From Streptococcus infantarius subsp. infantarius ATCC BAA-102 (GTDB lineage: Bacteria > Bacillota > Bacilli > Lactobacillales > Streptococcaceae): a stretch of 64,000 nucleotides of DNA. Below are positions 1,625 to 21,138 of this stretch, in pieces. The notes beneath the pieces are model-generated. The model was not told where the DNA came from. It saw only the letters and a program-made list of their open reading frames with translations, and searched no databases. The DNA is taken from the NCBI RefSeq assembly GCF_000154985.1, contig NZ_DS572693.1:124001-188000 (forward strand). The letters are read 5' to 3'. Each line of letters begins with the position of its first letter. The first letter of the stretch is position 1. The position numbers were made by a program, and so were the translations under genes.

Positions 1625-3037
1625 ATGGCTGAGATAAAGAAAAAACTTGGCAATCAAAATCCTACTCAATCGGTAATTCTTCCATTTGACAAATCTTTAT
1701 CTCATGAAGCTATCGAGATATACGAAAGAACGGGCTTAAAAAGTTACCCGTGGCAACAAAATCTTCTAAAAAGCGTAATGGGCATTGAAGAAGATGGGCT
1801 TTGGACACACCAAAAGTTTGGTTATTCGATACCTCGACGGAACGGTAAGACAGAGATTATCTACATGCTTGAATTGTGGGGGCTATACCATGGCCTAAAT
1901 ATCTTGCATACTGCACATCGAATAAGTACATCACATTCATCTTTTGAAAAAGTCAAACGATATCTGGAAAAAATGGGGCTTGAGGACGGAAAATCTTTTA
2001 ATTCTATTCGTGCCAAAGGTCAGGAACGTATCGAACTTTACGAAACGGGAGGTGTTGTTCAATATCGCACCAGAACATCTAATGGTGGTCTTGGTGAAGG
2101 TTTTGACTTGCTGGTAATTGATGAAGCGCAAGAATATACCACAGAGCAAGAATCTGCTTTGAAATACACCGTGACGGATAGTGATAATCCGATGACAATC
2201 ATGTGTGGAACACCACCAACACCAGTTTCAAGTGGTACGGTATTTACAAAATATCGTGAAACTTGCCTTTTCGGACGCGGGAAGTATTTGGGGTGGGCAG
2301 AATGGTCAGTATCAGAAGAAAAAGAAATTGATGATATTGACGCTTGGTACAATTCGAACCCGTCAATGGGATTCCATTTGAACGAGCGTAAAATAGAGGC
2401 TGAACTTGGTGAAGATAAGCTTGACCACAATGTTCAACGTCTTGGTTATTGGCCAACGTATAATCAAAAATCAGCTATTTCTGAAACTGAATGGAACGCT
2501 TTGAAAATCGATGATTTACCACAACTGCAAGGGCAATTATTTGTTGGTATTAAGTATGGTCAAGACGGTACGAACGTTGCTCTTAGCGTTGCAGTTCGCA
2601 CTAAAGATAAACATATCTTTGTTGAAACAGTAGACTGTCAATCTGTCAGAAATGGCAATCATTGGATTATCAATTTTTTAAAACAAGCAGATATTGCACA
2701 AATTGTAATAGATGGTGCTAGCGGTCAAAAGATTTTAAATGATGAATTAAAAGATTTTCACATTAAAAACACAATTTTACCAACGGTGAAAGAAATTATT
2801 GTTGCAAATTCGATGTGGGAACAAGCCATTTATCAACAAACACTTTGCCACGCTAGTCAACCGTCGCTTACTAAGGTTGCAACCAATTGCGACAAACGCA
2901 ATATTGGTTCAAATGGTGGCTTTGGTTACCGTTCACACTTCGATGATATGGATATTAGTCTTATGGACAGTGCTTTGCTGGCACATTGGGCTTGTGCAAC
3001 AACCAAACCCAAGAAAAAGCAAAAAGTTAGCTATTAA
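1625..3037 (+). CDS. terL: Phage terminase large subunit
   Basis: This is the ATPase and nuclease that drives DNA into the capsid and cuts it. The 470-residue product has a deviant Walker A (SIPRRNGKTE), a Walker B (DLLVIDEAQE), a coupling motif (MTIMCGTPP) and a C-terminal RNase H-like nuclease part with Asp in QIVIDGASG and in ISLMDSALL. I take ATG 1625, preceded by AAAGGAAA at good spacing, over an in-frame TTG at 1610. Its place is odd: it lies after portal and MuF genes, whereas most related phages put terminase first, and it is flanked by terminator-like hairpins at 1504 and 3041. No small terminase subunit is visible here. Confidence 0.92.
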   Translation: MAEIKKKLGNQNPTQSVILPFDKSLSHEAIEIYERTGLKSYPWQQNLLKSVMGIEEDGLWTHQKFGYSIPRRNGKTEIIYMLELWGLYHGLNILHTAHRISTSHSSFEKVKRYLEKMGLEDGKSFNSIRAKGQERIELYETGGVVQYRTRTSNGGLGEGFDLLVIDEAQEYTTEQESALKYTVTDSDNPMTIMCGTPPTPVSSGTVFTKYRETCLFGRGKYLGWAEWSVSEEKEIDDIDAWYNSNPSMGFHLNERKIEAELGEDKLDHNVQRLGYWPTYNQKSAISETEWNALKIDDLPQLQGQLFVGIKYGQDGTNVALSVAVRTKDKHIFVETVDCQSVRNGNHWIINFLKQADIAQIVIDGASGQKILNDELKDFHIKNTILPTVKEIIVANSMWEQAIYQQTLCHASQPSLTKVATNCDKRNIGSNGGFGYRSHFDDMDISLMDSALLAHWACATTKPKKKQKVSY

Positions 3038-5581: not shown

Positions 5582-5913
5582 TTGAATTAGTTGTAAAAGA
5601 ATTTCTGGATAATAATTTAAATATACCAGTACTTTTAGAGAAAGAACGAAAACTAACAGGAAAATTCGTACTTTTAGAAAAAACTGGTGGAACTAGCAGG
5701 AATCAATTGCATTCCGCAACGGTTGCTGTCCAAAGCTACGCTGATTCATTGTATGAAGCAGCATTGCTAAATCAAGAGATTAAAGATGTGATGAGTAATC
5801 TTGTCAAAATTGAAAATGTATCTGGTGTTCATCTTAATAGTGATTATAATTTTACAGATACAGAAACTAAACAATATCGCTATCAAGCGGTATTTGATAT
5901 TAATTATTGTTAA
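5578..5913 (+). CDS. Putative tail terminator protein
   Basis: The 111-residue protein begins four bases before the previous stop and precedes the major tail gene, the standard slot for the tail terminator (gpU/gp17-like) that caps the tail tube and fixes its length. Visible features are an N-terminal helix with a LVVKEFLDNNLNIPV start, a KFVLLEKTGG strand and a C-terminal TKQYRYQAVFDINY strand seen in this family. No catalytic motif is expected. Confidence 0.7.
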   Translation: MIELVVKEFLDNNLNIPVLLEKERKLTGKFVLLEKTGGTSRNQLHSATVAVQSYADSLYEAALLNQEIKDVMSNLVKIENVSGVHLNSDYNFTDTETKQYRYQAVFDINYC

Positions 5914-5927
5914 AGGAGATAATATAC

Positions 5928-6500
5928 ATGAGTGAAACAAGTAATGTAACAGCCGCTAAACCCAAAGTTGGCGGTGGTATCTATAGTGCTCCACTAGGAA
6001 CAGCGTTGCCGACTGATGCAACTACTGCTTTGAATTCAGCTTTTAAAAATCTTGGATATGTTTCGGAAGATGGTGTTACAAATTCGGATGAACGTTCTAC
6101 GGACGATATTAAGGCTTGGGGTGGAGATACTGTCAATACGGTTCAAACTGAAAAGAAAGATACGTTTAAGTACACACTTATTGAGGCTTTGAATGTTGAA
6201 GTCTTAAAAGAGGTTTATGGTGATAGCAACGTTTCTGGAACGCTTGAAACTGGTATTACAATTAAATCTAATTCAAAAGAATTAGATCCACACTCGATTG
6301 TTATTGAAACAGTATTGACAGACAACGCATTAAAACGTATTGTTTTGCCAAATGCTAAAGTTACTGAAGTTGGTGAAATCACTTACGGTGATAGTGATAA
6401 TGTTGGCTACGAAACCACAGTGACATGTTATCCAGACAGCGACGGTAATACTCACTACGAATATATCATTCGAAAATCTACAACAGGAAGCGCAGGTTAA
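5928..6500 (+). CDS. Phage major tail protein
   Basis: The 190-residue tail-tube subunit stacks as hexamers. It shows a GGGIYSAPLGTALPTDATTAL opening, an EDGVTNSDERSTDDIKAWGGDTV segment and a beta-rich remainder, all typical of the streptococcal and lactococcal tail-tube family. ATG 5928 has AAGGAG 8 bases upstream; an upstream in-frame TTG (5907) lacks one. It lies between the tail terminator and the chaperone frames, as expected. Confidence 0.88.
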   Translation: MSETSNVTAAKPKVGGGIYSAPLGTALPTDATTALNSAFKNLGYVSEDGVTNSDERSTDDIKAWGGDTVNTVQTEKKDTFKYTLIEALNVEVLKEVYGDSNVSGTLETGITIKSNSKELDPHSIVIETVLTDNALKRIVLPNAKVTEVGEITYGDSDNVGYETTVTCYPDSDGNTHYEYIIRKSTTGSAG

Positions 6501-6503
6501 TAT

Positions 6504-6761
6504 ATGATTCAAGGGAAAACAAATTCTGGTTTTAAGTTTGAAATTGACGAAAATCAGTTAAAAAATTATGAGTTTGTCGAATTGGTTGCTGAAGTCGACG
6601 AAAATGAATTATTAATGCCTAAGCTTTTGAAACTATTACTTGGTGATCAAGTAGAAGCTTTGAAAGACCATATTCGAGATGAAAGCGGAATTGTTCCGAT
6701 TGAAAAAATGGTTACTGAAATCAAAGATATTTTTGAAAATGCTCAAGTAAAAAACTCGTAA
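6504..6761 (+). CDS. Tail assembly chaperone, short form (gpG-like)
   Basis: This acidic helical protein of 85 residues begins three bases after the major tail gene. It is the equivalent of lambda gpG, which binds the tape measure protein during tail assembly but is absent from the virion. Three codons before the stop lies the slippery sequence A AAA AAC (6749-6755), in the correct phase for a -1 shift into the next frame. Most ribosomes should finish at TAA 6759-6761 to give this short form. Confidence 0.8.
   Translation: MIQGKTNSGFKFEIDENQLKNYEFVELVAEVDENELLMPKLLKLLLGDQVEALKDHIRDESGIVPIEKMVTEIKDIFENAQVKNS
6749..6755 (+). promoter_or_regulatory. Programmed -1 ribosomal frameshift site (A AAA AAC)
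   Basis: In the gpG frame the codons are GTA AAA AAC TCG TAA. The last A of GTA plus AAA AAC make the canonical X XXY YYZ heptamer. A -1 slip continues as Leu-Val-Ile-Leu-Ala-Ser and then into the frame that contains ATG 6773, giving a fusion of 216 residues (6504-7153). This matches the conserved G/GT frameshift of long-tailed phages. Confidence 0.82.
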
Positions 6762-15729: not shown

Positions 15730-16065
15730 ATGACAGAATTACTTGATACTACTCAAATTACACAACCTTTTGATTTGCCAACAGCAGTCAAATACATGCG
15801 AGAAAACGGTGAATATATCCGCTATCGCTCAAATGGCTATGATTTTTACATGTATATTTCAAAAGAACAAAAACCAGTTGTGGTTGATGGCAAACGTCAA
15901 CTTAAAGAGTTTGAAAAAATCTATGGTATTTCACAATATGGCGGTTCAATCACTAGCATTCCTGTTTCAGATTTACTTGATGCAAAATGCTATATTATGC
16001 AATTTGACGAAGATGGTAATCCAATCTGGAGCGAGCCAACAGAAACAAATGCTAGTGAAGCATAG
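15730..16065 (+). CDS. Phage protein of unknown function after the tail tip
   Basis: This 111-residue protein has a strong ribosome site (AAAAAGGAG). It shows a PFDLPTAVKYMRENGEYIRYRSNGYDFYMYISKEQ opening part, strands in the middle and an acidic C-terminus. Small proteins of this kind sit between tail-tip and holin genes in many streptococcal prophages without an assigned role. I see no membrane segment or signal peptide. Confidence 0.7.
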   Translation: MTELLDTTQITQPFDLPTAVKYMRENGEYIRYRSNGYDFYMYISKEQKPVVVDGKRQLKEFEKIYGISQYGGSITSIPVSDLLDAKCYIMQFDEDGNPIWSEPTETNASEA

Positions 16066-16080
16066 GAAGCAGAGGAGCTT

Positions 16081-16413
16081 ATGGTGGGACAAGATGTTAT
16101 CCATGAAGCCATGAGGGCAACTTGGACGATTGATAAGGTTGGCGGGATTTTAGCGACAGCTATTATCCTTGTCATCTTATTGTTAGTTTCAGCTATGACT
16201 TGGGTTATCAAGAAGCTAGTAACGGGCTTTCAAGAAACCAACAAGGAGCTGTTAGCTTCCAACAATCGGATTGCTACCGAAAATCAGCAACAAATGGCGA
16301 GACTAACCGAAGCGGTTAATAGCTTGTCGCTGGAGACACGCAAAGATATATCAGTCTTGCAAGATAAAGTTGATGGTCTAGAAGATGTGGTCAGGAAGAC
16401 GCAGATGTTTTAA
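16081..16413 (+). CDS. Small membrane protein of the lysis module
   Basis: The 110-residue protein has one strong membrane segment (about 23-47, ILATAIILVILLLVSAMTWV) and a C-terminal coiled coil (about 55-105). One membrane helix plus a cytoplasmic coiled coil is reminiscent of XhlA-like or antiholin-like proteins, but I do not recognise the family with certainty. GAGGAG precedes the ATG at close spacing. It lies just before the holin, so a role in lysis timing is plausible. Confidence 0.65.
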   Translation: MVGQDVIHEAMRATWTIDKVGGILATAIILVILLLVSAMTWVIKKLVTGFQETNKELLASNNRIATENQQQMARLTEAVNSLSLETRKDISVLQDKVDGLEDVVRKTQMF

Positions 16414-16448
16414 ACTATGCGCAGTAAAACGCAGAAGAGGAGAAGAAC

Positions 16449-16775
16449 ATGAATGATGTGATTATACAAGCAGCTATGCTTATTTTGACAGGTTTAGCTG
16501 GATTTATCGTTAAAACCGTAAAAGATTACCTTTTTAAAGAAGGCGGTGAAAAAGCTTTGCGTATCGTTGAAATCGTGGCAAAGAATGCTGTTAACGCAGT
16601 GGAGCAGATTGCAAATGAGGACGCTAAAGGCGAACAAAAATTAAATGCTGCTAAAACGAAAGTTAAGAAAGGGCTAGAACAGTACAATATCTATTTGTCT
16701 GACAGTCAGCTTGAAATGTTTATTGAAGCAGCAGTGAAAGAAATGAATGATAACTGGAAAGGAGAAAATAAATGA
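16449..16775 (+). CDS. Phage holin, LL-H type
   Basis: This 108-residue protein has one N-terminal membrane segment (about 5-26) and a long amphipathic basic tail with VEIVAKNAVNAVEQIANEDAKG, the pattern of the LL-H holin family. Holins make membrane holes at the end of the lytic cycle so that endolysin reaches the wall. The stop overlaps the endolysin start (ATGA). A ribosome site, GAGGAG, lies 7 bases before the ATG. Confidence 0.85.
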   Translation: MNDVIIQAAMLILTGLAGFIVKTVKDYLFKEGGEKALRIVEIVAKNAVNAVEQIANEDAKGEQKLNAAKTKVKKGLEQYNIYLSDSQLEMFIEAAVKEMNDNWKGENK

Positions 16776-17617
16776 ATACAGATGTTTTAATCAATTGGTT
16801 TGAAAGTCGTCGAGGAAAGCTCACTTATTCAATGTATGGCAGTCGAAACGGCTCAGACGGCACAGCGGACTGTTCAGGTTCAATTTCTCAGGCTCTTAAA
16901 GAAGCAGGAGTAAATATCATTGGTTTACCGTCAACGGTCACTCTAGGCTCACAATTGGCAAATAACGGCTTTTATCGAGTGTCTAAAAACGAAGATTGGA
17001 ACGGTCAACGAGGTGACATTATTCTCATGTCATGGGGCGCTGATATGTCGCAATCTGGCGGAGCTGGTGGACATGTCGGAGTACTAGAGGACGCTAACAC
17101 ATTTATTTCCGTTGACTACTGGACTGGCGGACAAGCAGGAACAGCGGTATCAAGTCATAATTGGGACCAATATTATGCAATCGAAAAACCAGCCTATATT
17201 GAAGCTTGGCGTTTTAGTGGGTCAACAGCTACACAGCCTAACACGGTTGTTTCAGGAGGTCGTAAACCAGACAGCAAAGCTTACTATCTAGCTAATGACG
17301 TAGCGTTTGTTAACGGTATCTATCAAATCAAATGCGACTACTTAGCGCCTGTTGGGTTTGATTGGACTGACAACGGTATTCCTGTAGCATTGGTAAACTG
17401 GGTCGATGAAAATGGCAACAATGTTAGAGATGGAGCCGATAAAGACTTCAAAGCTGGTATGTACTTCAGCTTCGAGATCGATGAAGCTCATATTCGTGAC
17501 TTAGGTGAAGGTGGATACTATGGCGGTTGGTACTGGCGTAAGTTCGAGTTCGGTCAATTCGGTACAGTCTGGCTTTCTTGTCGAGATAAGGACGATTTAG
17601 TCAATTATTACAATTAA
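16772..17617 (+). CDS. Phage endolysin, Amidase_5/NlpC-P60-like with C-terminal wall-binding domain
   Basis: The 281-residue protein has an N-terminal catalytic domain (1-150) with Cys34 in GTADCSGS and His101 in GGAGGHVGVLED, matching the bacteriophage peptidoglycan hydrolase family (Amidase_5) typified by Pal of phage Dp-1. A short linker (about 152-165) leads to a C-terminal region (170-281) rich in Trp, Tyr and Asp that is probably an SH3b-like wall-binding domain. There is no signal peptide, so release depends on the holin. AAAGGAG precedes the start, and a strong terminator follows. Confidence 0.9.
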   Translation: MNTDVLINWFESRRGKLTYSMYGSRNGSDGTADCSGSISQALKEAGVNIIGLPSTVTLGSQLANNGFYRVSKNEDWNGQRGDIILMSWGADMSQSGGAGGHVGVLEDANTFISVDYWTGGQAGTAVSSHNWDQYYAIEKPAYIEAWRFSGSTATQPNTVVSGGRKPDSKAYYLANDVAFVNGIYQIKCDYLAPVGFDWTDNGIPVALVNWVDENGNNVRDGADKDFKAGMYFSFEIDEAHIRDLGEGGYYGGWYWRKFEFGQFGTVWLSCRDKDDLVNYYN

Positions 17618-17647
17618 TGCTATAATCAAATAGTAAACACTTTAACA

Positions 17648-17676
17648 CGCTCTCGGCTTTTGCTGGGGGCGTTTTT
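17648..17676 (+). terminator. Terminator of the phage late operon
   Basis: A 10-bp stem (17648-17657 with 17662-17671, with G/T pairs) around a TTTT loop is followed by five T. It closes the lysis module. Confidence 0.8.
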
Positions 17677-17703
17677 GTATTTTTTTACAGTATAAATATA
17701 AAT

Positions 17704-17736
17704 AAAAACGTAAAAACACTAAAAGTTTACGTTTTT
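17704..17736. repeat. 11-bp perfect inverted repeat upstream of the antitoxin gene
   Basis: AAAAACGTAAA (17704-17714) and its exact complement TTTACGTTTTT (17726-17736) flank 11 bases. A related TTTGCGTTTTT lies at 17747-17757. The repeats lie just upstream of the promoter of the Panacea-domain gene and could be an autoregulatory operator or a hairpin. Confidence 0.55.
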
Positions 17737-17782
17737 GTAAAGAAAATTTGCGTTTTTAGAAACAAAAATAAGTATTTATAAG

Positions 17783-17811
17783 TTGAAATAAGGTTGAAAC
17801 TATGGCATAAT
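17783..17811 (+). promoter_or_regulatory. Promoter of the Panacea toxin-antitoxin pair
   Basis: TTGAAA (17783-17788), 17-bp spacer, CATAAT (17806-17811) with a TG extended -10. The leader between it and the start contains ATAACT (17821) and AGTTAT (17847), able to pair beside the GGAG ribosome site. Confidence 0.65.
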
Positions 17812-17863
17812 GTAGTTGCTATAACTCAAGACCTTTCTAAATATTTAGTTATGGAGTAATGCG

Positions 17864-18337
17864 ATGATTGATGTATTAAAAATTGTCAATTGGTTCAAAG
17901 TTCGAAATTATTCAGACATGAAAACTAATGATAATGTTGAAGCTTTGACTCAATTAAAAGTAATGAAATTATTGTACTATGCTCAAGGTGTATCGTTAGC
18001 CTTATATGATAAATTATTGTTCCCGGAAAAAATTCTAGCTTGGAAATATGGGCCAGCTGTTCAAGAAGTGTATGATGTATACAAAGGGTCAAGAGAGATA
18101 GTTGATTCTACAAGTAACGGGATGAGCGATACTGAAATAGGAGATTATCAAGAGGTAAACTCCGATCAAGAAGCGGCTCTTATTTTGAATGCAGTCGTTG
18201 ATGCATATGGCGATATGTCTGCGATAGAGTTAATGAATCAAACGCATGGAGAAGCTCCGTGGTTAGAAACAACTCAAAGTCAGGAAATCGATGTTAATCT
18301 AATCAAAGATTTTTTTGTTAAAGAAATAGTTGAATGA
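17864..18337 (+). CDS. Panacea-domain (DUF4065) antitoxin
   Basis: The 157-residue protein has the signature of the Panacea/SocA-like domain: TQLKVMKLLYYAQGVSLALY (about 32-51), then a LAWKYGPAVQEVY segment and a later helical DAYGDMSAIELMNQTHGEAPW. This domain is known as an antitoxin module that pairs with many unrelated toxins and often sits in prophages. It has its own promoter and GGAG ribosome site and overlaps the next gene by four bases (ATGA), the usual antitoxin-toxin coupling. It lies just after the endolysin, the usual place for lysogenic-conversion genes. The domain call is strong; the target and mechanism are inferred. Confidence 0.82.
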   Translation: MIDVLKIVNWFKVRNYSDMKTNDNVEALTQLKVMKLLYYAQGVSLALYDKLLFPEKILAWKYGPAVQEVYDVYKGSREIVDSTSNGMSDTEIGDYQEVNSDQEAALILNAVVDAYGDMSAIELMNQTHGEAPWLETTQSQEIDVNLIKDFFVKEIVE

Positions 18338-18756
18338 CAAAAATTAAAAGTAAAAAAGTAAAAGCAAGACCAAAAATAAAGTCTAATAAACTTGAAGATT
18401 TTAAACCAGAATATGTTCAATTTAATTTTTCATTTATTACTAAACACGAGAAATATAATTTAGAAAATAATAATTTAATCCATACGCTTTTACTAGAAAA
18501 AATTTATTATTTATCTTCTATGGACTGGGTTCAAGTGTTGGCTCTTAGGAAGGAGCAAGGAATTGAGACACTTAGCTCCCATGCATTAAAAAAATTAACC
18601 ATACCCCTTGAATTCAAGGAGAGACGAGATGACTATTGCACTGATAAATTTTTTGTGTTTCGCTTAAAAAATCAAGGCAGAGTAATTGGAAAGATGATAG
18701 ATAAGACATTTTATATATTGGCTATTGATACAACATTTGATTTGTATAAACATTAA
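18334..18756 (+). CDS. Probable toxin partner of the Panacea antitoxin
   Basis: This 140-residue protein begins inside the antitoxin stop. Residues 1-20 are very Lys-rich. About 50-75 are helical (YYLSSMDWVQVLALRKEQG). The C-terminal 40 residues form a compact strand set, FFVFRLKNQGRVIGKMIDKT then FYILAIDTTFDLYKH. A terminal strand hairpin with conserved Arg, Gly, Asp and His after a helical half is like small ribonuclease or RelE-type toxins, but I do not recognise the family. Toxin identity rests mainly on the overlap with a Panacea gene. Both genes are more AT-rich than the tail genes. Confidence 0.6.
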   Translation: MTKIKSKKVKARPKIKSNKLEDFKPEYVQFNFSFITKHEKYNLENNNLIHTLLLEKIYYLSSMDWVQVLALRKEQGIETLSSHALKKLTIPLEFKERRDDYCTDKFFVFRLKNQGRVIGKMIDKTFYILAIDTTFDLYKH

Positions 18757-18757
18757 T

Positions 18758-18788
18758 ACCCTAGCGCAAGCTAGGGTGTTTTAATTTT
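18758..18788 (+). terminator. Terminator after the Panacea pair
   Basis: An 8-bp perfect stem (18758-18765 with 18770-18777) with a GCAA tetraloop is followed by GTTTTAATTTT. Confidence 0.85.
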
Positions 18789-18806
18789 GTTGACGTCAAC
18801 AAAATT
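18783..18806. promoter_or_regulatory. 24-bp perfect palindrome, probable operator
   Basis: Bases 18783-18806 read the same on both strands, centred on GTTGACGTCAAC between 18794 and 18795. The right end overlaps the first two bases of a -35 box (18805-18810), so a bound dimer would control the promoter that follows. Confidence 0.7.
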
Positions 18807-18833
18807 GGCAGTCATGCACGTTTATGTTATAAT
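18805..18833 (+). promoter_or_regulatory. Strong promoter of a short non-coding unit
   Basis: TTGGCA (18805-18810), 17-bp spacer, consensus TATAAT (18828-18833). Transcription should begin near 18840. No gene follows for about 590 bp. Confidence 0.75.
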
Positions 18834-18837
18834 ATAA

Positions 18838-18899
18838 GTACCTCATTTGAGGTACTTTCTTTATCTTATAAAATGCACCCGATTTTTTCGGGTGTTTTT
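18838..18899 (+). ncRNA. Putative small RNA of about 60 nt at the prophage right end
   Basis: After the promoter, a 5' hairpin forms from GTACCTCA (18838-18845) and TGAGGTAC (18848-18855). A 20-base single-stranded link follows, then a terminator made of CACCCGA (18876-18882) and TCGGGTG (18888-18894) and five T. The frame ATG 18873 to TAA 18933 has no ribosome site and crosses the terminator, so the unit is probably non-coding. A target is not evident. Confidence 0.5.
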
Positions 18900-18988
18900 A
18901 GTGCAATAAAAAAAGCCTTGTCCATAAAAGCTTAAGGCGGGGAATAGGCGAGCGCACGTTAAACTAAACACAGCAGGACTTCTTTTCA

Positions 18989-19014
18989 GGACTAGCGTGA
19001 GCTAGTCCTTTTTT
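18989..19014 (+). terminator. Strong hairpin terminator with GTGA loop
   Basis: GGACTAGC (18989-18996) pairs perfectly with GCTAGTCC (19001-19008), then six T. Its sequence resembles the hairpin at 18758. No transcript entering it is evident except read-through from 18840. Confidence 0.75.
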
Positions 19015-19079
19015 GTTGTCGTTAAAACGGACCTATCACTAAATTGTGGTTATAACAGCAGTGCCTTAAATATTTAAAT

Positions 19080-19099
19080 TTTGGGGCAAATTTGGGGCA
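19080..19099. repeat. Tandem TTTGGGGCA direct repeat
   Basis: Two exact copies (19080-19088 and 19091-19099) with an 11-base period, one helical turn, which would put two protein sites on one face of the DNA. Possible integrase or excisionase binding sites. Confidence 0.5.
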
Positions 19100-19111
19100 T
19101 AAGTTTGAAAC

Positions 19112-19222
19112 TTTTGTGTTTTTACCTTCAAAAAGCAATATAGTTTCTATCTTATAAATGCTTATTTTACAGTGTTTTCTACTATTTTATATCAATGAAA
19201 TATCATCATCTAAAACACAAAA
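19112..19222. repeat. Inverted repeat, possible integrase arm sites
   Basis: TTTTGTGTTTT (19112-19122) is the exact complement of AAAACACAAAA (19212-19222), and flanking bases extend the match. The arms are about 90 bp apart. Confidence 0.45.
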
Positions 19223-19241
19223 AGTTCTTGATAAATAATTT

Positions 19242-19286
19242 AAAAAGCCTATCGTATCAAGCCACGCTTGCTGCGGGGCTTTTTTT
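19242..19286. terminator. Terminator before mutX
   Basis: AAAAAGCC (19242-19249) pairs with GGCTTTTT (19277-19284), with an inner CAAGC/GCTTG stem at 19258-19270 and T or A runs at both ends, so it may work both ways. It separates the phage end from the chromosome. Confidence 0.65.
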
Positions 19287-19396
19287 ATCTTTTGAGAAAA
19301 AAGTAAAGCTAAGATAGGGTTAATTGAAAAATATCTATAAAAACCTAGAATTATTTTACAAGTTATGCTTTGATTCAAGAATTGTGTTTGGTTTTC

Positions 19397-19405
19397 TGGT
19401 ACAAT
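19397..19405 (+). promoter_or_regulatory. Extended -10 promoter of mutX
   Basis: TGGTACAAT is an extended -10 without a clear -35. Transcription would start near 19412, giving a leader of about 20 bases to ATG 19432. Confidence 0.55.
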
Positions 19406-19431
19406 AGAAGAAAATGAGAAAGAAGAGAAAG

Positions 19432-19917
19432 ATGACGAAGTTAGCGACAATTTGTTATATTGATAACGGTGAGGCACTTTTGCTTTTGCATCGTAATAAA
19501 AAGCCTAATGATGTTCATGAGGGAAAATGGATTTCGGTTGGTGGTAAACTTGAAGCAGGTGAAACGCCTGATGAATGTGCTAAACGTGAAATTTTTGAAG
19601 AAACGCATTTTAAGGTTAAGGAAATGGATTTTAAAGGTGTGATTACTTTCCCTGAATTTACGCCTGGTCACGATTGGTATACCTACGTCTTTAAGGTGAC
19701 AGATTTTGAAGGTCAATTAATCTCTGACGAAGAATCACGTGAGGGTACTCTTGAGTGGGTTCCTTATGATAAGGTGTTATCAAAACCAACTTGGGAGGGT
19801 GACTATGAAATCTTTAAGTGGATTTTAGATGATGTGCCATTCTTCTCAGCTAAGTTTACTTATGATGACAAGCAACGCTTAGTAGATAAGAGTGTTACTT
19901 TTTATGGCGATAAGTAG
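19432..19917 (+). CDS. mutX: Nudix hydrolase, probable 8-oxo-dGTP diphosphatase
   Basis: The 161-residue protein matches the streptococcal MutX type, which hydrolyses 8-oxo-dGTP to the monophosphate and so prevents A:T to C:G mutations. The Nudix box runs from Gly38 (GKLEAGE, then TPDECAK, then REIFEE), with all metal-binding Glu present. The small residue after it, normally Gly, is His59 here (EETHF). I take ATG 19432; an ATG 18 bases upstream would leave almost no leader after the extended -10. The next gene begins 34 bases later behind GAGAGGAG and is probably cotranscribed. Confidence 0.85.
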   Translation: MTKLATICYIDNGEALLLLHRNKKPNDVHEGKWISVGGKLEAGETPDECAKREIFEETHFKVKEMDFKGVITFPEFTPGHDWYTYVFKVTDFEGQLISDEESREGTLEWVPYDKVLSKPTWEGDYEIFKWILDDVPFFSAKFTYDDKQRLVDKSVTFYGDK

Positions 19918-19951
19918 TCCTTATTGAAGTTGTCTGGAGAGAGGAGTTTTT

Positions 19952-21138
19952 ATGGAGCGTCATCAAGAAAAGAAATTTACGGAGTCTTGGTTTTTTAAAT
20001 GGGTTTTAAACAGTCAAGCTACTGTGGTAGTTATGGTCACTTTTCTTGTCTTTTTGATCCTTTATTTGTTCACTAAGATTTCATTTCTATTTAAACCTGT
20101 TTTGTCTTTTTTAGCCATTATCATGCTTCCTTTGGTAATTTCGGCAATTCTTTACTACCTGATTAAGCCTTTGGTTGGCTTGATTGAACGACGTGGTGTT
20201 AACCGAACGGCTTCAATTTTCATTGTTTATGCTATTATTGTGGCTCTGCTTATTTGGGCGGTAGCAAGTTTTATTCCTATGATTGAAGGGCAATTGACCT
20301 CATTTGTTGAGAATTTACCTGCTTATGTTAAAAGTGTCAACGTTGAAAGTTCTAAACTTTTGAAGAGTCCTTGGTTGGCTAATTATCAGTCAGAATTGCA
20401 AGATATGTTGGCTAATATCAGTGATAAAGCTGTTGATTATGCGGAAAGCTTTTCTAAGAATGCTATTGACTGGGCATCAAGCTTTGCTAGCGCCATTGCT
20501 CGCGTGACCTTAGCTATCATTATGTCACCGTTCATTCTCTTTTATTTCTTAAGAGATAGTCATAAGATGAAAGAGGGGTTAATTAAGGCACTTCCGACTA
20601 GAATGCGTCGTCCAACGTCACGTATTCTTGGAGATATCAACAAGCAGCTTGCTGGTTATGTTCAAGGTCAAGTAACCGTTGCAATTGTTGTTGGAATCAT
20701 GTTCACAATCTTCTTTAATATGATTGGTTTGCGTTATGCGGCAACTTTTGGTATTATTGCAGGCTTCCTTAATATGATTCCATATCTTGGTAGTTTCTTA
20801 GCTATGGTTCCAGTTGTGATTATGGGGATTGTTCAAGGACCAATTATGCTGATTAAGATTCTTGTGACCTCGTGGTTGAACAAACGATTGAAGGGCGTTT
20901 TGTAGCACCTTTGGTTTTGGGAAGCAAGCTAAGCATCCATCCGATTACCATTATGTTTATTTTGCTAACGTCTGGCTCAATGTTTGGTATTTGGGGAGTG
21001 TTCCTTGGAATTCCGGTTTATGCCTCTATCAAGGTGGTTGTTAAAGAAATTTTTGACTGGTACAAAGCTGTCAGTGGTTTATATGAAGAAGAGTTAATTG
21101 TAGAAGAAGGAGAAGAAGAATCAAAAGATGTTAAATAG
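19952..21138 (+). pseudogene. AI-2E family transporter, frameshifted
   Basis: The first frame (19952-20905) gives 317 residues with hydrophobic helices of the AI-2E transporter (DUF20) family, ending in an unrelated basic tail. The second frame (from about 20872 to 21138) supplies the missing conserved end, VEQTIEGRFVAPLVLGSKL, then HPITIMFILLTSGSMFGIWG. Adding one base near 20866-20872 (ACCTCGTGG to ACCTTCGTGG) would restore a single 395-residue protein reading through ILVTF-VVEQTIEGRF. A one-base loss is thus likely, in the cell or the assembly. The family acts as transporters or antiporters in the cytoplasmic membrane; substrates vary. Confidence 0.85.

Follow-up and report, generated by a model that had tools for sequence, protein, structure and literature searches.

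A prophage Panacea toxin-antitoxin-like cassette with a partner of predicted RelE-like fold in Streptococcus infantarius

The stretch of DNA analysed here, hereafter the window, comprises 64,000 nucleotides of Streptococcus infantarius subsp. infantarius ATCC BAA-102 (contig NZ_DS572693.1, positions 124,001 to 188,000). In its prophage part, 3' of the genes for a holin and an amidase lysin, lies a cassette of two genes on the forward strand. The upstream gene, panA (17864-18337), is preceded by GGAG at 17853-17856 and encodes a protein of 157 aa that carries a Panacea domain and no other recognised domain. The downstream gene, denoted as panT (18334-18756), encodes the partner, a protein of 140 aa with a predicted RelE-like fold and a lysine-rich N-terminal tail that was modelled with low confidence. 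The two open reading frames share four nucleotides, ATGA. PanA is acidic with a pI of 4.4, the partner is basic with a pI of 9.6, and the G+C content of the partner gene (27%) is lower than that of all 344 overlapping segments sampled from the prophage part (mean 39%). A Panacea-domain gene, a four-base overlap and a small basic partner were all features that a first-pass annotation had read from this DNA, and all of them were confirmed. A NUDIX gene is located further 3' of the pair. Elsewhere in the window, the open reading frame at 19952-20905 resembles, by eye, a membrane transporter and overlaps another at 20872-21138 that resembles its C-terminal part, so that this gene may be frameshifted in the window sequence.

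The named phage nearest to the region is Javan263 of Streptococcus infantarius, which shows identity over 17000-18337 and whose record ends at the end of panA. Two further loci carry the cassette in other surroundings. The forward-strand segment 17820-18834 is 93% identical to L002 with different flanking DNA, and 17839-18782 is 92% identical to L003, where the directly adjoining DNA differs as well. On the 5' side, a terminator-like hairpin at 17647-17672 (forward strand) lies 3' of the lysin gene and separates the pair from the late operon. On the 3' side, the closing terminator that had been claimed was found at 18755-18780 (forward strand) and is also present in L002 and Javan224; terminator-like sites in 17600-19200 numbered seven against 0.6 in shuffles. 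The upstream promoter of the first-pass annotation corresponds to an extended -10 site at 17783-17811 (forward strand; TTGAAA, 17 nt, CATAAT; 10/12), which was placed by position. Considering that seven promoter-like sites were observed in the same interval against 7.6 in shuffles, this site is no evidence by itself. The 11-bp inverted repeat exists as described and is perfect (17704-17714/17726-17736), and a further half-site, which is imperfect, lies at 17747-17758. As a conserved operator, however, it was rejected, being missing from L002 and L003 despite the 92-93% identity of the cassette. Since the identity begins at 17820 in L002 and at 17839 in L003, 3' of both the repeat and the promoter-like site, the repeat lies outside the conserved unit.

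The downstream border is marked by another promoter-like site with an extended -10 element at 18805-18833 (forward strand; TTGGCA-17-TATAAT, 11/12), which was found in L002 and Javan224, whereas L003 continues without it after the terminator. From 18805 to 19009, this site is followed by hairpins and terminators with no clear open reading frame. It recurs in Javan224 and in the six viral contigs recovered by an exact scan, with partly different hairpins, and the pattern looks as if the region coded a short RNA; an Rfam scan of 16000-20000 gave no match at E 0.1.

PanA matched the Pfam family SocA_Panacea (PF13274) with an E of 1.7e-20 and 74.4 bits against a cut-off of 25.7, and the SocA equivalog (NCBIfam NF047745) weakly, its 52.9 bits staying below the cut-off of 190. 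The GPV motif of the Panacea domain reads GPA in the window protein; Gly63 and Pro64 are invariant in seven aligned PanA proteins, and the others have V or A at the third position. In a PanA test reported in the article text of PMC8832971, a single V64S change was tolerated and a double change was not. A Panacea protein of the Lactobacillus phage JNU_P1 is 52% identical to PanA and is paired with a Fic/Doc protein, an exchange of partners such as the same text (PMC8832971) describes for PanA. Neither PanA nor the partner matched a family in PADLOC 2.0.0.

The partner matched no Pfam family over its cut-off and no NCBIfam family, but it matched two PHROGs, both of unknown function, one of which (phrog_8366) matched all 24 aligned relatives. 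When these 24 members were searched against Pfam, YoeB (PF06769) and YafQ (PF15738) were not among the matches and the best E of 0.0035 belonged to an unrelated family; searches of the PDB by sequence gave best E values of 0.46 and 0.072, both for unrelated proteins. A local hhalign comparison of the family profile with small alignments returned probabilities of 0.8% for YoeB and 0.5% for YafQ, which have no significance. In the controls, PemK scored slightly above both (1.2%, in another region) and reversed profiles gave 0.3-0.4%. Because the profile comparison was non-significant and the PemK control was slightly higher, we kept the partner out of the YoeB and YafQ sequence families. HigB had no members for comparison in 81 genomes of the class.

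Within the family, Phe30, Ser61, Glu78, Gly119, Asp132 and Tyr138 are invariant in 24 of 24 aligned members, Arg110 and Arg116 are kept in 22, and a histidine stands at or near the C-terminus in 18. All 24 proteins are basic (pI 9.2-10.3), are 139-162 aa in length and begin with a tail of 18-38 residues with net positive charge. With an acidic residue ahead of the sheet, arginines on the central strands and an aromatic residue close to the C-terminus, the pattern is reminiscent of the active sites of YoeB and HigB. This comparison rests on residue conservation in the 24 members, and the catalytic set is putative.

Structure prediction, which the first-pass annotation had proposed for both proteins and their complex, was carried out for the partner and yielded a RelE-type topology in two members that are 27% identical. 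The AlphaFold model of the window protein (P0002), built with 23 relatives in an alignment of 24 sequences, had a pLDDT of 84.9 and a pTM of 0.75, with low confidence for residues 1-20, and its elements follow the order β29-31, α47-61, α65-70, β78-80, a short helix, β106-110, β116-122 and β125-132. The model of the E. coli relative, built from 20 of the same 24 sequences, had a pLDDT of 74.6 and a pTM of 0.65 and showed the same order without the short helix. In Foldseek searches against the PDB, the best match of P0002 was YoeB of Staphylococcus aureus (E 0.054, prob 0.92), and RelE-superfamily structures filled 41 of the best 50 rows out of 281 with E up to 10. For the E. coli relative, the best match was YafQ of Vibrio cholerae (E 0.019, prob 0.99), and 47 of the best 50 rows out of 146 were of the RelE superfamily when the effector Cami1 is counted. 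Many of these rows repeat the same few proteins, and we assigned them to the RelE superfamily by title and by general background on these toxins, although the titles of a Helicobacter pylori toxin, a Streptococcus pneumoniae complex and PrpT name no family. TM-scores by query length among the best 50 rows were at most 0.39 for P0002 and 0.45 for the E. coli relative, and the best E in a BFVD structure search was 0.19. As such, the models are consistent with a RelE-type fold, and the match is weak since the best E values were 0.054 and 0.019 and neither model had a match at E 0.001 or below. A RelE/YoeB guess from the C-terminal motif preceded the fold search. The C-terminal hairpin that the first-pass annotation had singled out as a possible new toxin type coincides with β116-122/β125-132 of the predicted RelE-like fold. 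A new type is not supported for this reason; the partner belongs to an unnamed sequence family but is predicted to have a fold that is already known.

Relatives were gathered with searches of the partner family alone. A partner was counted as intact when a single open frame covered at least 115 of 147 model positions; identical proteins entered the count once, and each near-identical one kept an entry of its own. Homologues that regularly lack a Panacea gene would have spoken against the pair proposed in the first-pass annotation. This is not so, and the search of the 140-residue family and its neighbours showed that 52 of 52 distinct intact homologues are immediately preceded by a Panacea gene in the same orientation. 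The spacing of the stop-to-stop frames ranged from -106 to +10 nt. Distances among PanA proteins correlated with those among their partners (r 0.88 over 52 pairs, a value inflated by near-identical pairs), while the best of 2000 shuffles reached 0.21, which indicates that the two proteins travel together. The relatives come from Firmicutes and Proteobacteria, where they occur in genomes, plasmids and phages; the phages include those of streptococci, lactobacilli, E. coli, Salmonella and Pseudomonas, and the plasmids those of L. gasseri and L. salivarius. Relatives occur in 26 of 397 genomes of the family Lactobacillaceae (broken copies and the doubtful L166 included), and in 9 of 395 genomes of the order and 2 of 398 of the class (broken copies included). 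The pair of the E. coli relative is present at no less than 99% identity (>=99%) in 48 of 5426 complete E. coli genomes, so that toxicity, labelling and phage plating tests would be simple in K-12. L062 and L068 (genomes G002 and G635) each carry three consecutive Panacea genes within about 2.2 kb. One of the three is paired with the partner toxin family (broken in L068), and the arrangement may be a tandem PanAT array. In L158, each of two Panacea genes is followed by a toxin copy or remnant.

Broken copies bear on which of the two genes would encode the toxin. Nine loci carry a broken partner, some of whose breaks may be draft-assembly errors. PanA is intact in five of them (L009, L030, L031, L068 and the upstream copy in L158) and broken in L029 and L164, and no PanA lies in the DNA examined at L069 and L070. 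The reverse, an intact partner with a broken or missing PanA, was seen in 0 of 52; in the most distant pair, L063, the PanA frame spans 125 of 152 model positions. Neither the intact nor the broken count includes L166, which matched part of the model at E 1e-4 and has no Panacea gene. The asymmetry of five to zero gave 0.03 in a one-sided sign test, and Fisher's test gave 2.4e-4, a value inflated by the decay of whole loci. Such a pattern would be expected if the toxin could not be allowed to persist once its antitoxin is lost. Read from sequence, these data support a PanAT operon in which the putative antitoxin comes first.

To see what else lies between the lysin gene and the downstream border would be to treat this place as a slot, and the contents vary. 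Ten phage records matched the region and six were examined, with Javan210, 206, 226 and 235 left out. Before the border, L173, on the same contig as L002, has the same PanAT; L170 a Panacea-like gene (1870-2295, reverse strand) that scores below the Pfam cut-off and lacks a clear partner; L171 a PBECR4 nuclease (5645-6184, reverse strand); and L174 a DUF3800 gene (5985-6671, forward strand). In L172 and L175, a lysin-like gene, recognised by eye, directly precedes it. The slot of Javan224 (S. gallolyticus) has the same downstream border and contains a putative membrane protein and an ImmA/IrrE peptidase (L114 1464-2505, forward strand, for the two together), the peptidase being matched by PADLOC to capP (E 3.7e-21) and RmrA (E 2.8e-17). 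The Streptococcus phages Javan470 and P9 have a different Panacea gene after the lysin (L115 2001-2760, L116 1986-3307); their partners of 104 and 269 aa matched no Pfam family at E 0.01, and the one of 269 aa belongs to phrog_5763, whose function is unknown. A dedicated defence slot is contradicted by four sister phages whose lysins are similar (Javan288, 207, 215 and 202), in which no toxin- or defence-like gene was recognised in this place. They have a Gp111-like protein with small open reading frames, an HNH endonuclease flanked by two pieces annotated as lysin, or nothing with a toxin or defence annotation. As the sample is small and was partly chosen via Panacea or the partner, the slot is a lead rather than a result, and the survey is mixed and circumstantial as to the abortive-infection or superinfection-exclusion role that the first-pass annotation had thought possible. 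If it holds, this streptococcal prophage site would yield toxin and defence modules by position and not by homology.

The Panacea toxin-antitoxin-like pair that the first-pass annotation had placed after the endolysin is thus supported as a cassette, and pairing, mobility as a unit and the predicted fold of the partner are supported by this analysis. We consider it reasonably likely that the cassette is a prophage type II PanAT with a divergent RelE-fold toxin, for which mRNA cutting on the ribosome is the most likely activity. The acidic Panacea protein would be made first and would bind and neutralise the basic 140-aa protein, translation of which would be coupled to panA via the ATGA overlap. 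Neutralisation by binding is what published stand-alone PanA systems lead us to infer, since direct neutralisation and complex formation are described for such Panacea antitoxins in the article texts of PMC10440598 and PMC8832971. By analogy with its structural neighbours YoeB, YafQ, HigB and RelE, the toxin would bind the ribosome and cut mRNA, and it is probably a translation-blocking RNase; translation would stop when PanA is lost or altered by infection. Coupled translation, ribosome-dependent RNase activity and phage sensing are all steps that we infer. The cassette would occupy a position with interchangeable contents towards the right end of prophages in streptococci, where it probably protects against other phages or acts as an addiction module.

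Among the alternatives, a PanAT toxin with a BECR-type fold distant from RelE and with another target such as tRNA seems unlikely, yet several features fit it. No Foldseek E fell under 0.001, profile similarity to YoeB or YafQ was not seen, and the lysine-rich N-terminal tail and extra length are atypical of RelE toxins, judged by their usual size and by the lengths of the matched chains. The PBECR4 nuclease of L171 occupies the same slot, but no kinship of the partner with it was seen (profile probability 0.2%), and the match lists of both models consist mostly of RelE-superfamily structures.

The same lists bear on a toxin that would act like ParE and poison DNA gyrase with no RNA cutting. 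ParE proteins have the same fold as RelE but inhibit gyrase. For the E. coli relative, ParE chains stand at ranks 41, 43, 44 and 50 of the best 50 matches and 6n90, titled YoeB/ParE toxin, at ranks 4 and 6, and ParE appears at ranks 29 and 46 of the best 50 for P0002; the top-ranked rows of both models, however, are mostly YoeB, YafQ, HigB and RelE. Although the residues of a ribosome-dependent RNase lack confident assignment in the partner alignment, the invariant polar Asp132 and Tyr138 near the C-terminus presumably suit a nuclease better than ParE. While the article text of PMC8832971 includes ParE domains among PanT clusters, we regard gyrase poisoning as quite improbable here. That the two proteins form no toxin-antitoxin system and are instead a stable accessory or counter-defence complex moving with phages is very improbable: constant pairing in the sample and co-inheritance are expected of any obligate complex, and eight putative toxins of 25 PanAT pairs selected by Kurata et al. 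were non-toxic in E. coli, but the modelled partner fold is RelE-like, broken partners beside an intact PanA outnumber the reverse by five to zero, and Panacea proteins neutralise toxins in nine validated pairs and one earlier (PMC8832971, article text).

Beyond the preferred reading of a PanAT with a ribosome-directed toxin, a wider and rather doubtful proposal is that the partners form a separate family of RelE-fold ribosome toxins across phages of Firmicutes and Proteobacteria, with a lysine-rich tail binding RNA or the ribosome, control by Panacea only and PanA as a phage sensor. The cassette would then be one of several modules (PanAT, an RmrA-like pair, a PBECR4 nuclease, DUF3800 or empty) in a dedicated superinfection-defence slot bounded by the conserved promoter with hairpins.

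Compared with known systems, the RosmerTA-like cargo of Javan224 consists of proteins unrelated to the PanAT pair and has the slot alone in common with it. KreT, a prophage RNase-like toxin, was set aside by its description in the article text of PMC12487901, where the antitoxin KreA resembles an immunity protein and not Panacea. The type VI system SocAB shares the Panacea domain of its antitoxin, but PanA is far under the SocA cut-off (52.9 of 190 bits) and the partner matches no NCBIfam family. The partner resembles the ribosome-dependent mRNases YoeB, YafQ, HigB and RelE in the predicted order β-α-α-β followed by a β-sheet with a hairpin at the C-terminal end, in its basic charge, and in residues at the C-terminus or close to it, namely a tyrosine present in every member and a histidine present in 18 of 24. 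In contrast with them, the family is longer (139-162 aa against about 82-120 in the matched toxin chains), carries the lysine-rich N-terminal tail, has no significant sequence or profile similarity to them and is paired with Panacea and not with RelB, YefM, DinJ or HigA. A protein family without a match in Pfam (over the cut-off), NCBIfam or PADLOC gains a predicted fold and a testable mechanism from this analysis. In the literature listings covered by our searches, no description of the partner toxin family by name, its RelE-like fold or the slot was found; the family may be an unnamed entry in the datasets of Kurata or Ernits. PanAT (Kurata et al. 2022, PMC8832971; Ernits et al. 2023, PMC10440598) differs, as far as the article texts go, in that the partner toxin family is not named there, though it may be among the 88 T clusters or the NetFlax nodes, and in the GPV motif, which is GPA in the window PanA. 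The likeness to PanAT as described in these texts lies in a Panacea antitoxin without another recognised domain, an antitoxin-first operon of two genes, occurrence in mobile elements and phages, and partner swapping. PanAT systems, partner swapping and RelE/ParE folds among toxin-antitoxin toxins are already published.
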